Source of the DNA: Winogradskyella sp. KYW1333
Lineage (GTDB): Bacteria; Bacteroidota; Bacteroidia; Flavobacteriales; Flavobacteriaceae
DNA: 64,000 nt
Direction: 5' to 3'
NCBI RefSeq assembly: GCF_003335675.1
Contig: NZ_QPHL01000017.1
Location: forward strand, 372,001-436,000
Positions within the stretch are counted from its first letter, which is position 1; each line of letters begins with the position of its first letter. Positions 36,499 to 43,113 of the stretch are shown piece by piece. The position numbers and the translations under genes are program-made. Under the pieces are notes generated by a model. The model saw only the letters and a program-made list of their open reading frames with translations, was not told the origin of the DNA and searched no databases.

Positions 36499-37293
36499 TT
36501 ATTGGCTCACCGCCCAAATTATAGCAATTAGGCCAACAATAGCGCAATAGATAGAAAAATAGGTTAGCTTGCTTTTTTTCACTAAGGCAATCATCCAGGT
36601 ACACGCAAATAATCCTGCAATAAAGGCGGCTACAAATCCAACGCTGAGTGGTAAGAAATTTGAACTTTCATAGGTTAATTCACCGCTAAGGACATCTTTT
36701 GCAATTTTCCCAAAAATTAAAGGAACAACCATTAAAAACGAAAAACGTGCAGCCTTTGTTTTGTCATTACCCAATAATACTGAGGTAGAAATTGTTGCTC
36801 CAGATCGGGAAATACCTGGTAAAATGGCAATTGCCTGTGATACACCAATTACAAAAGCATTAGAAAAAGAAACACTTTTTTCAGTGTTTTTTGCTCTATC
36901 AGCTAAATATAGAAGTAAGGCCGTAATTATGAGCATAAAACCAACTAGCGCTATTTGCCCACCAAATAATAGTTCCAATTCTTCCTCGAAGAATACGCCA
37001 ATTATAGTTGCTGGAATCATGGAAATCACGATTTTTGATAGAAACTTCATGTCTTCGTTCCATTCAAATTTTAAAATTCCTTTTATGATGTTAAGAATAT
37101 CCTTTCTAAAAACTACAATGGTACTGAGAGCTGTTGCAAAATGAAGTACAACTGTAAAAAGTAAACTTTCTTTTGGTACTGAATTATCTCCCAATATAGC
37201 TTTTCCTAATTCTAAATGACCACTAGAGGAAACAGGTAGAAACTCAGTGAGTCCTTGGATTATTCCTAAAATAATTGCATCAATTACTTCCAT
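36499..37293 (-). CDS. uppP: Undecaprenyl-diphosphatase
   Basis: 264 residues, multi-spanning BacA-type phosphatase that recycles the lipid carrier for peptidoglycan and other envelope polymers. Active-site motifs are visible at both halves: GLTEFLPVSSSGHLEL and PGISRSGATIS. A TACTTTTG box ends 4 nt before the ATG, so the transcript is probably leaderless. The divergent neighbour is the glycosyl-glycerate cassette. Confidence 0.96.
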   Translation of the reverse strand: MEVIDAIILGIIQGLTEFLPVSSSGHLELGKAILGDNSVPKESLLFTVVLHFATALSTIVVFRKDILNIIKGILKFEWNEDMKFLSKIVISMIPATIIGVFFEEELELLFGGQIALVGFMLIITALLLYLADRAKNTEKSVSFSNAFVIGVSQAIAILPGISRSGATISTSVLLGNDKTKAARFSFLMVVPLIFGKIAKDVLSGELTYESSNFLPLSVGFVAAFIAGLFACTWMIALVKKSKLTYFSIYCAIVGLIAIIWAVSQ

Positions 37294-37297
37294 GGAG

Positions 37298-37305
37298 CAA
37301 AAGTA
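37298..37305 (-). promoter_or_regulatory. -7 box (TACTTTTG) directly before the uppP ATG
   Basis: TAnnTTTG with a 4-nt spacer to the start codon, the same arrangement as at glyS and luxE. Confidence 0.6.
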
Positions 37306-37420
37306 TCAATTAGAAACAAGTTTCAAAGCAAATGATCCTAAAATCGTTAATCCTAATTTTTATTTTAATTTTATAGGAACTAACTAATATAACCAACAAC
37401 CAGGATCCAAATTTTCTTTC

Positions 37421-38731
37421 ATGTATAAAACCAACCTAATTGAAGGCGCTAAAAAGGTGCTTAATTCTAATTTTAATGAAGAAAAAGGATTTACAATTCC
37501 GTGCGAAGGATTATATCCATTCCAGTGGCACTGGGACTCTGGATTTATAGCTATTGGTTATGCACACTACGATATTGAGAAGGCTAAGCGAGAAGTTGAA
37601 TCATTATTAAGTGGCCAGTGGGAAAATGGATTTATTCCACATATAGTTTTTCATAATGAAAGTGACACCTATTTCCCTGGACCAGATTACCACAGATCAG
37701 ATTTACATCCTTCTTCACCAAAAACTATAAAGACCACAGGAATTACACAACCACCAGTATTGGGATTTGTTTTAAAAGAAATCTATGATATAGCCAGAGA
37801 TAAGCAGGATGTGTTAGAATTCATAAGACGAAATATCGATAAGATATTTAAGAATCATGAGCATTTTTATAAGTATAGAGATCCACATGATGAAGGCCTA
37901 GTATATATCTATCACAACTGGGAATCTGGCACTGACAATTCTCCTATTTGGGATGAAATTTGGAAGATAATGGATCCTCCTAAATACAAATATGAAAGAA
38001 AAGATACGACTCATGTTGATGCTTCTCAAAGGCCTACTAATAGAGAATACGACTGCTATTTACATTTATTAGAAATAGCAAAAGCACATAATTATGATGA
38101 TGCAAAAATCGCTGAGTTATCTCCATTTTTAGTTCAAGATCCTCTATTTAATGCCATTCTTATTAAATCTAATGAAGCCTTGATTGAATTATATCATATT
38201 CTCGGAGGCAATGAGGATAAGGTTGAGGTATTAAAGTCCTGGCAAAATAAAGCTAAGGATAGTTTTGAGGCAAAATTATTTAATGAAGAATTAGGCTCAT
38301 ATGTGTATTATGATTTAAGAAATCAAAAGCAGATTGCATTTACTACATCTTCGTCATTTACACCGCTTTTTGCTGGTATACCCAATACAGGTAGAGCGAA
38401 TAAATTGGCACATAGGTTGTTGAAAAATTTTGGAAGTGAAGATTTATTTTTTTGTGCCTCTTTTGATCCAAAGAGTGAGCAATTCAAGCCTAAAAAGTAT
38501 TGGAGAGGACCAGTTTGGATAAACCTAAATTGGTTGATTTATAAAGGGCTAAAAAGATATAAGTACTATGAATTGGCTGAACGATTAAAACAAGAAACCA
38601 TCAAATATATTGAGAAGCATGGTTTTTACGAATATTTTGATGCACGAAAGGATCAGTTTGAAAACGCTGCTTATGGCGGTAAGAATTTTTCATGGAGTGC
38701 CGCCTTAACATTAGACTTATTAAACGAATAA
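37421..38731 (+). CDS. GH63-type mannosylglycerate/glucosylglycerate hydrolase-like enzyme
   Basis: 436 residues, no signal peptide, so cytoplasmic. An (alpha/alpha)6-barrel glycosidase: PFQWHWDSGF (Asp39), NWESGTDNSPIWDE (Asp172), YWRGPVWINLNWL, and YEYFDARKDQFENAAYGGKNFSWSA (Glu404). Length and motifs fit the GH63 mannosylglycerate and glucosylglycerate hydrolases of Thermus and Mycolicibacterium, where to my recollection equivalent Asp/Asp/Glu residues bind the glycerate and catalyse hydrolysis. It lacks the GH37 trehalase signatures. Next genes are a sodium symporter (9 nt) and a glycerate kinase, which would use the glycerate released. Glucosyl versus mannosyl specificity cannot be read from sequence. 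Confidence 0.82.
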   Translation: MYKTNLIEGAKKVLNSNFNEEKGFTIPCEGLYPFQWHWDSGFIAIGYAHYDIEKAKREVESLLSGQWENGFIPHIVFHNESDTYFPGPDYHRSDLHPSSPKTIKTTGITQPPVLGFVLKEIYDIARDKQDVLEFIRRNIDKIFKNHEHFYKYRDPHDEGLVYIYHNWESGTDNSPIWDEIWKIMDPPKYKYERKDTTHVDASQRPTNREYDCYLHLLEIAKAHNYDDAKIAELSPFLVQDPLFNAILIKSNEALIELYHILGGNEDKVEVLKSWQNKAKDSFEAKLFNEELGSYVYYDLRNQKQIAFTTSSSFTPLFAGIPNTGRANKLAHRLLKNFGSEDLFFCASFDPKSEQFKPKKYWRGPVWINLNWLIYKGLKRYKYYELAERLKQETIKYIEKHGFYEYFDARKDQFENAAYGGKNFSWSAALTLDLLNE

Positions 38732-38740
38732 TAAATTATT

Positions 38741-40447
38741 ATGAATTGGTTAGACTATACTATAATTGCTATTTATCTCATAGGTTTTATTGCCATGGGC
38801 TATTTCTTTAAGGATAATAAAGATTCCAAAGACTATTTCTTAGGTGGTAAAAGTTTGGGTTGGTTTCCGTTGAGCTTATCAACCATGGCAACACAGTTGT
38901 CTGCTATAAGTTTTATTTCGGCACCAGCTTTTGTTGGTTTAAAGGCTAATGGTGGTATGAAATGGCTCACTTTTGAGTTCGCTGTACCTCTGGCAATGAT
39001 TGGGATTATGTTTTTCATAATTCCACCGTTATACAAATCTGGAATAGTTAGTATTTATGAGTATTTAGAACAGCGATTTTCAAAATCTACTCGTAAAATA
39101 ATAAGTGTTGTTTTTCAGATTAGTAGAGCATTAGGTACAGGTGTTATGGTATTTACCATGGCATTAATCATTCAAGCTGTCGTTGGTATTAGTTTTCATT
39201 ATACCTTGATCATTATTAGTGTTGTAACCTTAGCCTATTCCTATCAAGGTGGTATGAAGGCTGTAGTTTGGGGTGATGCTATACAAATGATAATTCTTTT
39301 TGCCGGTTTAGTTATTTGTTTGATAGTTGGGTATTCTTTACTTAAGGATACAGGAACTTTCACTGGCTTTGACACTGACAGGTTACAAGTTATAGATTTT
39401 GATAACTTCGGAATATTTAGTGGTGACGAATATGGCTTTTGGCCTATGCTTTTAGGTGGATTGTTTTTGTATCTATCTTATTATGGTACAGATCAAACCC
39501 AAGCGCAGAGATTACTTTCTGCAAGAGATGAAGGTACCATCAAGAAACTATTAATGGCTAACGGATTATTGCGATTCCCTGTTGTATTGGTGTATTGTGT
39601 AATGGGATTGATAATTGGTTATTTAGTAAGCAACATTCCTGAGTTTTATGAAAGTATACAAGAGACGACTCGTATTCACTATCCAGGTGAATATGCTAAA
39701 TCAGGGTTTAAGCCAGATCTAATGATACCTGTTTTCATAACCAATTATTTGCCAAATGGATTAATAGGAATTCTTATGGTGGGAGTAATGTCTGCTGCAA
39801 TGTCTTCATTAAGCTCAACTATTAACTCATTAAGCGCTGTGACTATTGAAGATTTTTTCAATAGTGGCGAAAAGAAACTAGAAGGTAAACGTTACATGTT
39901 TATATCTAAGGGATTGGTTGTTTTTTGGGGTTCGGTATGTATTTTGGCAGCTTATTTATTCGGTAATAGCCAGAGTACAGTTATTGAACTAATAAATGCT
40001 ATTTCTTCATTGTTTTTTGGACCAATATTAGCGGCATTTATATTAGCAATTTTCTTTAGAAAGGTCAACCATATTGGTATGAATGTGGCTATCATAACTT
40101 CGGTAGTTGTTAATTTGGTATTTAAGTATTTACCAGATTTAGTCTACTTGTTTAATCAAGGCGGTTTTTATAATGGTAATGCATCTATTCATAGCGCTTT
40201 AGCGGATACAGGTATTACAAATGTTCCAGATTTATTTTGGATATGGTATAACCTTACTGGATTTGCAATTGCATTAGTTGTGGCAGTTATTGTAAGCAAG
40301 TTAACAAGCAAAACACCTGCAAAGCAATTGGAAATACAGTATTCGTTCAATGCTAACGAACTAGTTCAAAAGGAGAGTGTCATATTGATTAGTTTCTTTG
40401 TATTGATATTAGTATTTAGTTATTTCTTACCAATAATTTTGGGTTAA
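38741..40447 (+). CDS. Sodium:solute symporter (SSS family), predicted glycosyl-glycerate importer
   Basis: 568 residues with about 13-14 hydrophobic segments in the SSS (SGLT-like) arrangement: LDYTIIAIYLIGFIAMGYFF start, DYFLGGKSLGWFPLSLS, and MSAAMSSLSSTINSLSAVTIEDF for sodium binding. It starts 9 nt after the GH63 gene and ends 4 nt before the glycerate kinase gene, so the three form a tight operon. Import of the GH63 substrate is inferred from that position; related SSS members carry sugars, sialic acid or amino acids. Confidence 0.88.
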   Translation: MNWLDYTIIAIYLIGFIAMGYFFKDNKDSKDYFLGGKSLGWFPLSLSTMATQLSAISFISAPAFVGLKANGGMKWLTFEFAVPLAMIGIMFFIIPPLYKSGIVSIYEYLEQRFSKSTRKIISVVFQISRALGTGVMVFTMALIIQAVVGISFHYTLIIISVVTLAYSYQGGMKAVVWGDAIQMIILFAGLVICLIVGYSLLKDTGTFTGFDTDRLQVIDFDNFGIFSGDEYGFWPMLLGGLFLYLSYYGTDQTQAQRLLSARDEGTIKKLLMANGLLRFPVVLVYCVMGLIIGYLVSNIPEFYESIQETTRIHYPGEYAKSGFKPDLMIPVFITNYLPNGLIGILMVGVMSAAMSSLSSTINSLSAVTIEDFFNSGEKKLEGKRYMFISKGLVVFWGSVCILAAYLFGNSQSTVIELINAISSLFFGPILAAFILAIFFRKVNHIGMNVAIITSVVVNLVFKYLPDLVYLFNQGGFYNGNASIHSALADTGITNVPDLFWIWYNLTGFAIALVVAVIVSKLTSKTPAKQLEIQYSFNANELVQKESVILISFFVLILVFSYFLPIILG

Positions 40448-40451
40448 CTAT

Positions 40452-41570
40452 ATGCGTATAATATTAGCACCAGATAAGTATAAAGGTTCAATAACTGGTT
40501 TAGAATTTTGTAACATAATAGAACCAGTCCTTCGTAATCATTTTGATGCAGAAATTATCAGATTACCCATGGCTGATGGTGGTGATGGCACAATTGAAGT
40601 TATTGATTTTTATTTATCAGGACAGACAATCAAGACTAAGGTTAGCGATCCCTTATTTAGAACAATTGAAGCTTCATATCTATTTTCTGATGCTTCAAAA
40701 ACTGCTTTCATAGAAATGGCCGAAGCTTCGGGTTTAAAATTATTGAAGCTAGAGGATCAAAACTGCATGAGCACCACATCATTTGGAACTGGAGAATTAA
40801 TCCTTCATGCTTTAGATAAAGGTGCTCAGCATATTATTTTGGGTATTGGTGGTAGTGCAACGAACGATTGTGGCATTGGTATGGCATCAGCATTAGGCTA
40901 TCAGTTTTTTGATGAAAGAAATAATCAAATCACACCAATTGGTAGAAACCTTGCAAAAGTTAATAGAATTGACGATTCTCAAGTAGAAAAACGCTTGGCC
41001 AAAGTAAAAATTCAGATTGCATGCGATGTAAAGAATCCTTTGTATGGCCCACAAGGTGCAGCTTATATTTATGGAAAACAAAAAGGCGCAAACCTTTCTG
41101 AAATTATGGACTTAGATAGTGGGTTACACAATGTATCTTCTGTAATAGACCATCACTTTGGGTTAAAAACTCAAGATATTATTGGCGCTGGTGCGGCAGG
41201 CGGAATGGGAGCTGGTACCGTCGCTTTTTTAAATGGAGAGCTAATTCCTGGGATTGAATTAATGATGCAGATTGCCGATTTTGAAAAGAAAGTAGAAGGT
41301 GCAGATTGGATAATTTCTGGCGAGGGCCGATTAGATGACCAGACATTATCAGGTAAAGCAATGAGCGGTATTATTAAATTGGCACAAAAACACAATATTA
41401 AAGTGGCTTCTTTTTGTGGTAGTACTGATCTAGACTCAAATGAAATTAGTGAAATGGGCATTAATTATAGTAGCACCATAATGGATAAGGCTAATAGTTT
41501 AGATGATGCCTTAGAGAATACAAAGCTATACTTAGAGCAACTGGTAGAAGATTTTATTTCTTCCCTTTAG
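40452..41570 (+). CDS. Glycerate kinase (GarK/GlxK family)
   Basis: 372 residues, complete class-2 glycerate kinase: ILAPDKYKGSITGLEF, LPMADGGDGTIEVID, IGIGGSATNDCGIGMASALG, GAGAAGGMGAG and SGEGRLDDQTLSGKA are diagnostic. Enzymes of this fold mostly make 2-phosphoglycerate from D-glycerate. Its place behind the glycosyl-glycerate hydrolase and symporter suggests it channels the glycerate half into lower glycolysis. The last 17 bp overlap the convergent DUF3098 gene. Confidence 0.93.
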   Translation: MRIILAPDKYKGSITGLEFCNIIEPVLRNHFDAEIIRLPMADGGDGTIEVIDFYLSGQTIKTKVSDPLFRTIEASYLFSDASKTAFIEMAEASGLKLLKLEDQNCMSTTSFGTGELILHALDKGAQHIILGIGGSATNDCGIGMASALGYQFFDERNNQITPIGRNLAKVNRIDDSQVEKRLAKVKIQIACDVKNPLYGPQGAAYIYGKQKGANLSEIMDLDSGLHNVSSVIDHHFGLKTQDIIGAGAAGGMGAGTVAFLNGELIPGIELMMQIADFEKKVEGADWIISGEGRLDDQTLSGKAMSGIIKLAQKHNIKVASFCGSTDLDSNEISEMGINYSSTIMDKANSLDDALENTKLYLEQLVEDFISSL

Positions 41571-42234: not shown

Positions 42235-43113
42235 TTAATAATACAATTGGTCTGTCTTGAGATTAAGAAAGCGTTGGGTAGCAATAAAAGTGCTTATCCA
42301 AGTAATAACAACACCCAAAAGAAATATACCAATAAAAAGTGCAATGATTAAGATTGTATTTCTAAGCAATTCTAATTCCGGGAAAGTTAAATCAAGATAA
42401 TATAGTACTACGGCCATCCCTGCTAATGCAACAACTGCACCGATGATTCCAAGTTGTACGCTCTTCCAAATAAAAGGTCTTCTAATAAAACTCTTAGTGG
42501 CACCAACCATTTGCATTGTCTTAATGATAAATCGTTTAGAATAAACAGCTAATCGTATGGAACTATTTATTAAGAGGACTGCAATTAATGTAAAAACACC
42601 ACTAATTATGAGTACCCAAAACGTTATCTTTTTAACATTATCATTCATTAATTCAACCAAGTCATTATCATAACGAATTTCTTCGATAAAAGATTTGTTA
42701 GATAAGTTCTCAGATATTTCCGTAAGGTTTTCCGTAGTAACGAAATCTGCTTTTAAGTAAACATCAATCGAGTTTTTAAGCGGATTATATCCCACAAAAT
42801 CCATAAAATCATCACCCGTTTCAGCTTTCATAAGAGCAGCAGCTTCTTCTTTAGAAACATAAAGTGCTTCTTTTGAGTAGTCTGCCATAGCCAAACTTTT
42901 CTTTAATTGATTTACTTCTACCTCTTTTGCAGTATCATTTAGGTAAATGGTCACAACCACTTGTTCCTTAAAGTGATCAGCAACTTTTTTGGCATTAATA
43001 ACTAAAAGACCTAAGCAACCTAAAAGAAAAAGTACCAAAGCAATACTTATAACCACAGAGATATAAGAAGAGATAAGTTTGCGCTTTTGGTATTTGTCAA
43101 AGGATGAGGCCAT
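42235..43113 (-). CDS. ftsX: Cell division protein FtsX (permease of FtsEX)
   Basis: 292 residues. N-terminal transmembrane helix (about 17-40), a periplasmic domain (about 45-165) and three C-terminal helices with the FtsX/MacB element KTMQMVGATKSFIRRPFIWKSVQLGIIGA. With FtsE it activates peptidoglycan hydrolases at the septum; ftsE is not adjacent here. First gene of the minus-strand group ftsX-lipoprotein-DUF3098, divergent from leuS. Confidence 0.94.
   Translation of the reverse strand: MASSFDKYQKRKLISSYISVVISIALVLFLLGCLGLLVINAKKVADHFKEQVVVTIYLNDTAKEVEVNQLKKSLAMADYSKEALYVSKEEAAALMKAETGDDFMDFVGYNPLKNSIDVYLKADFVTTENLTEISENLSNKSFIEEIRYDNDLVELMNDNVKKITFWVLIISGVFTLIAVLLINSSIRLAVYSKRFIIKTMQMVGATKSFIRRPFIWKSVQLGIIGAVVALAGMAVVLYYLDLTFPELELLRNTILIIALFIGIFLLGVVITWISTFIATQRFLNLKTDQLYY

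Follow-up and report, generated by a model that had tools for sequence, protein, structure and literature searches.

The 64,000-nucleotide stretch of Winogradskyella sp. KYW1333 analysed here (contig NZ_QPHL01000017.1, positions 372,001 to 436,000, hereafter the window) contains three consecutive genes for a GH63 hydrolase, an SSS-family sodium:solute symporter and a class-II glycerate kinase, which very probably form a single catabolic operon for the uptake of mannosylglycerate (digeneaside), and likely of glucosylglycerate too, with cleavage in the cytoplasm and use of both halves. Import, cleavage and use of both halves had been proposed in the initial annotation of this DNA, and good inferential support for the proposal comes from the residues of the hydrolase, the co-occurrence of the kinase, the operon-linked mannose-6-phosphate isomerases (ManA) of some relatives and the lack of a match over cut-off to two synthesis families. 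The symporter would move the uncleaved anion through the inner membrane together with Na+. The hydrolase, in which Asp172 would be the acid, Glu404 the base and Arg204, Tyr84 and Tyr360 the probable glycerate-holding residues, would act by inversion and yield D-glycerate along with mannose or glucose. The glycerate kinase would convert D-glycerate into a phosphoglycerate for glycolysis, while mannose would be turned into its phosphate, possibly through the single ROK kinase of the genome, from which its single ManA would produce fructose-6-phosphate. Passage over the outer membrane likely depends, in most relatives, on a TonB receptor, and regulation of the operon likely depends on a LacI-type protein that acts at a GCAAACGTTTGC operator; in the window lineage, the small solute would probably enter via porins and the operon would be under some other control or under none, because receptor, LacI gene and operator were likely lost together.

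The three plus-strand open reading frames were found at the coordinates first given for them, with gaps of 9 nt (hydrolase/symporter) and 4 nt (symporter/kinase), and their family assignments were borne out over cut-off by PF22422 (MGH1-like glycoside hydrolase, 312.2 bits against 27), PF00474 (SSF, 137 bits against 22.8) and PF02595 (449.5 bits against 23.3). The PF22422 match covers residues 32–426 of the hydrolase and positions 1–356 of the 356 in the profile, and the N-terminus has no hydrophobic stretch, so that a cytoplasmic location is predicted. The protein is 41% identical to the mannosylglycerate hydrolase (MgH) of Thermus thermophilus HB8 (PDB 4wva-4wvc, 2z07) and 35% identical to MhGgH of Mycolicibacterium hassiacum (PDB 5ohc), and its fold agrees with both solved enzymes. 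Asp39, Asp172 and Glu404, which the initial annotation had named, align with Asp43, Asp182 and Glu419 of MhGgH, and the catalytic Asp and Glu together with 11 conserved substrate-contact residues are the same as in MhGgH at 13 of 13 positions. At one further position, the hydrolase has Phe423, as in MgH, where MhGgH has Gln434. A hydrolase tree with both solved references placed MhGgH on a branch of more than 5 changes per column with a warning of long-branch joining, and it was not used to decide between a mannosyl and a glucosyl substrate. Scores of 41.6, 24.9 and 24.0 bits on the TreA/TreF families of NCBIfam were all below their cut-offs (512, 560 and 941), Pfam Trehalase was over its cut-off at 72 bits, and a separate trehalase-family protein (C9:613641-615212, 451.6 bits) is present in the genome. 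Grouping with other GH63/GH37 activities, as judged by scores and fold and not by a tree of such sequences, did not occur. The public names of close homologues (P0003, P0015, P0039, P0040, P0048, P0101) include trehalase and amylo-alpha-1,6-glucosidase, and these are likely misannotations for several of them.

The symporter scores 223.7 bits on TIGR00813 (cut-off 184), and its best sequence matches in PDB are iodide and multivitamin transporters, which give no pointer to a glycosyl-glycerate substrate. The glycerate kinase, the sole PF02595 match in a search of the window genome (2.81 Mb, 17 contigs), scores 416.4 bits on TIGR00045 (cut-off 168.45) and lies below cut-off on both PRK equivalogs (312.9 of 625 and 299.9 of 686), which concern a 2- or 3-phosphoglycerate product.

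The three genes also occur together elsewhere, contrary to the outcome that the initial annotation had named as fatal to its proposal. Hydrolase loci were fetched in 102 cases, of which 92 were distinct and 74 of these encoded a hydrolase more than 50% identical to that of the window; the symporter was found in 74/74 of the latter, partial or broken copies counted, and the kinase in 69/74, those without it being L065, L066, L068, L135 and L078, whose contig stops inside the symporter gene. At the genome level, a PF02595 kinase gene is present in all 31 Flavobacteriaceae genomes with the hydrolase versus 60 of the 168 without it (Fisher 1e-12, uncorrected for ancestry), and it lies within 5 kb of the hydrolase in 27 of the 31; in the other four, the contig stops 1.6 kb past the hydrolase (G158) or the kinase is on another contig (G095, with a partial match, G183 and G065). 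The parts of the operon are not uniform among loci. Operon kinases only 34–43% identical to that of the window occur in a number of loci, including L043, L044 and L055, and the symporter identities seemingly fall into two groups, of about 49–57% and 59–94%, which suggests part swapping inside the operon. Twelve loci have a GNAT acetyltransferase gene between those for the hydrolase and the symporter (L044, L049, L050, L051, L064, L073, L081, L100, L119, L124, L127 and L130; by Pfam in L050 and by cluster in the others), and in L132 (genome G150) the symporter is split into three frames beside an open hydrolase and kinase, as a pseudogene or an assembly error.

Both mannosyl- and glucosylglycerate, left side by side in the initial annotation, are plausible substrates, and the mannosyl form is now favoured because of the genes added to the operon in related loci. 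In four loci (L067, L123, L124, L128), all in one hydrolase clade, a mannose-6-phosphate isomerase (TIGR00218 over cut-off) directly follows the kinase on the same strand at a spacing of -20 to 15 nt; similarly, a PF01050 cupin lies 12–14 nt after the kinase in three Flavobacterium loci (tested in L046, by cluster in L048 and L053), and a ROK kinase lies 61 nt after it in L051. The window genome encodes a single ROK kinase and a single ManA, the latter with 52% identity to the L067 protein. It is unlikely that the natural substrate is mainly glucosylglycerate of cyanobacterial or other bacterial origin, since the operon-linked ManA and the cupin would be superfluous for a glucose-only pathway and Phe423 is the residue of MgH, not MhGgH; such a substrate would nevertheless suit the glucose-type ROK kinase of the window genome, the predicted phosphorylase of L125 and the report that the MgH enzymes of Thermus and Selaginella are similarly efficient on both compounds (PMC6608630). 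In L125, the gene between symporter and kinase encodes a GH13_18-type protein that, among solved structures, comes nearest to glucosylglycerol and sucrose phosphorylases; it reaches 202 of 334 bits on the NCBIfam sucrose phosphorylase family, under the cut-off, and its best match in its own genome is 32% identical over residues 200–462 only. According to PMC7178133, (T/S)ETN marks glucosylglycerate phosphorylases, with glycerate kinase genes frequently alongside, and the L125 protein, which has TETN, is predicted to be such an enzyme. The GH13_18 2-O-glucosylglycerate phosphorylase clusters of that study thus resemble the window operon in joining glycosyl-glycerate catabolism to a glycerate kinase, but the window has a hydrolase instead, and L125 appears to have both enzymes. 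The other downstream genes tested in other loci (AraC-type regulators, a methyltransferase, PhzF-like and DUF families, a mechanosensitive channel, an outer-membrane barrel) had no evident link to the pathway.

Acquisition from outside is favoured over recycling, because there is no synthesis match over cut-off and because TonB receptor and LacI-type genes, which look like nutrient acquisition, lie beside the operon in most relatives. The synthase family PF09488 gave no match in 199 genomes including that of the window, with a positive result in the Thermus control genome, and NF010496 gave none over cut-off in the same number. It has been proposed that MhGgH mobilises the cell's own glucosylglycerate (PMC6608630); a corresponding recycling of self-made mannosyl- or glucosylglycerate, with a symporter that merely retrieves leaked solute, is very improbable here and was set aside on the two synthesis searches.

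The initial annotation had recognised a three-gene operon, and the three genes are indeed present, but what the window holds is a reduced form of a five-gene locus. Upstream sequence of 3.3 kb or more was available for 68 distinct loci. In 46 of them, a TonB receptor gene immediately precedes the hydrolase, and a LacI-type gene in divergent orientation and an operator-like palindrome are also present; four lack the receptor alone, three lack the palindrome alone when one mismatch is allowed, and 15 have none of these. The palindrome GCAAACGTTTGC, with at most one mismatch, occurs in 50 of the 53 loci that have LacI and in none of the 15 that do not, although these are related loci and the counts are not a test of independent events. 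No SusD-sized partner occurs within the locus in the 47 cases with the receptor before the hydrolase, because the only extra genes between receptor and kinase are the GNAT gene, the L125 protein and one 84-aa open reading frame. The reduced form is found in the window, W. vincentii (L057), W. alexanderae (L033), DT_119 (L035) and G606 (L177), at the same site without receptor, LacI gene or palindrome. The genes that bound this site are presumably uppP and ftsX; the window shares the site with the majority of the full-form Winogradskyella loci examined, L179 and L180 being exceptions, and the site also occurs in five other genera (L119, L124, L126, L128, L130), uppP lying to the left of full-form loci in Winogradskyella and five other genera. 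No operator-like palindrome was found near the window operon, and no receptor orthologue was found in the window genome, where the matches are 25–36% identical and all within the first 300 of 888 residues. Similarly, no LacI orthologue was found elsewhere in that genome; the best match is at 39% identity, and L160 (G000:C9:592451-593461), a LacI-family match 39% identical to the operon regulator of relatives, has one TAA inside.

Within the genus, 16 of 68 genomes have the hydrolase, and among the 15 whose surroundings were fetched (G623 left out), five have the reduced form and ten have receptor and LacI. In trees of 26 sequences each, the five reduced loci form one clade nested among full forms for the hydrolase (100/99) and weakly one clade for the symporter (74/49), and for the glycerate kinase they do not, two changes being needed, or one in 6% of bootstraps. 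A single loss of receptor, LacI gene and operator in the window lineage is the simplest reading and is likely but not proven, because only the hydrolase tree unites the reduced loci firmly. That the three-gene form, with these three elements missing from the window and from four further loci of Winogradskyella, is a decaying and functionless remnant is highly improbable, since all three frames lack internal stops in 5/5 reduced loci and dN/dS is at most 0.132 within the set where computable, these values being approximate at high dS; where computable, the genes thus appear to be under purifying selection. Between the window (37121-38900) and W. vincentii L057, DNA identity in 200-column blocks is 95–100% over the hydrolase gene and mostly 74–91% on both flanks, apart from one later block at 98%, a pattern that points to recent recombination in a tract that spans the hydrolase gene. 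Taken further, it is possible, though slightly less likely than not, that marine Flavobacteriaceae share a dedicated glycosyl-glycerate regulon (TonB receptor without SusD, SSS symporter, GH63 hydrolase, kinase, LacI on its operator and sometimes ManA or a phosphorylase) from which the window lineage lost receptor, repressor and operator in one deletion, to become a low-affinity, unregulated digeneaside scavenger.

Least probable of all is a trehalase or other alpha-glucosidase with kinase and symporter as incidental neighbours, a reading to which the public names and the Pfam Trehalase score lend some colour and which was set aside, as was any other GH63/GH37 activity, in view of the much higher MGH1-like score, the fold, the retention of all glycerate-contact residues, the separate trehalase-family protein and the linkage to the kinase. 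Several points nevertheless weigh against glycosyl-glycerate catabolism as the role of the operon. The function is predicted from sequence; on NF047898, the NCBIfam equivalog of glucosylglycerate hydrolase, the enzyme reaches 344.8 of 550 bits, below cut-off; and the predicted role of the symporter as a glycosyl-glycerate importer is drawn from gene context only, the family itself being uninformative on substrate. The enzyme family as a whole does not come with the triad, as more distant hydrolases are often without symporter (present in 5/18 loci beyond the set above 50% identity) or kinase (2/18). The ManA link is found in relatives, within one hydrolase clade, and not in the window operon; no mannokinase is linked to the latter, the ROK kinase of the genome is over cut-off as a polyphosphate-glucose phosphotransferase, and the Flavobacterium cupin scores weakly (31 of 373 bits) on a family that contains phosphomannose isomerases. 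In addition, receptor loss leaves entry through the outer membrane unexplained, and the synthesis searches cover known routes only. NF010496 matches below cut-off occur in 199/199 genomes, that of the window included, and are read as the ordinary glycosyltransferase background, such matches being present in 14/14 controls, with one over cut-off.

The coordinates of the operon and its surroundings are given in Table 1. Upstream of the hydrolase, no match to a flavobacterial promoter pattern was found. Generic promoter matches were no more frequent than chance would give (18 found, 21.4 expected), and terminator candidates numbered 4 where 2.3 were expected, with none on the kinase strand after the kinase, so that neither a promoter nor a terminator is assigned to the operon. 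Among the distant hydrolases, those of L104, L105, L107 and L108 adjoin RtcB-family genes (by Pfam in L104 and L107, by cluster in L105 and L108) and are without symporter or kinase; the RtcB of L104 (L104:8690-11656) has an intein-splicing domain, and the clustered gene of L105 has the same 988-aa length.

Table 1. The predicted operon and its boundaries, in window positions
Feature	Position	Strand	Size, basis or remark
GH63 (MGH1-like) hydrolase	37421..38731	+	436 aa; Pfam, NCBIfam and PDB comparison
SSS-family sodium:solute symporter	38741..40447	+	568 aa, 11 hydrophobic segments by hydropathy; TIGR00813
Class-II glycerate kinase	40452..41570	+	372 aa; TIGR00045
Intergenic stretch uppP/hydrolase, 127 nt	37294..37420	no strand	gene order in relatives, which have the divergent LacI gene, palindrome and receptor gene here
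uppP, left boundary, outside operon	36499..37293	-	neighbour kept in relatives' loci
ftsX-like gene, right boundary, outside operon	42235..43113	-	neighbour kept in relatives; small genes in between

The digeneaside degradation trait of Zobellia galactanivorans reportedly goes back to Barbeyron et al. 2016, the source cited for it. The claim in the initial annotation that no such operon had been described in flavobacteria does not hold at the level of the trait, which is already known, though still largely predicted. It has been reported that Maribacter dokdonensis 62-1 holds homologues of the digeneaside degradation genes of Z. galactanivorans (PMC8072126), that digeneaside is a possible substrate of loci of North Sea Flavobacteriia (PMC6298971) and that most Ceramiales red algae accumulate it (PMC8523428). 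The trait of Zobellia and Maribacter (PMC8072126) shares its bacterial family and predicted substrate with the window operon; the Maribacter loci L043, L044, L054, L056, L073 and L081 match it in the order of hydrolase, symporter and kinase, but the window is without their receptor and LacI gene. Escherichia coli MngA likewise serves import and use of mannosylglycerate as a carbon source (PMC8490865), as is predicted for the window operon, but by PTS uptake in place of a predicted sodium symporter and a GH63 hydrolase. In the titles and abstracts searched, with most subscription papers including that on Zobellia outside the scope, no description of the set of GH63 hydrolase, symporter and glycerate kinase was recognised, and none of the five-gene architecture with its operator or of the receptor-less lineage was found in the literature searched. 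If the reading is true, the gene set would mark marine bacteria that feed on digeneaside and would provide a concrete transporter, receptor and regulator for testing, and the receptor-less lineage offers a natural comparison for the contribution of the TonB receptor to the uptake of small solutes.

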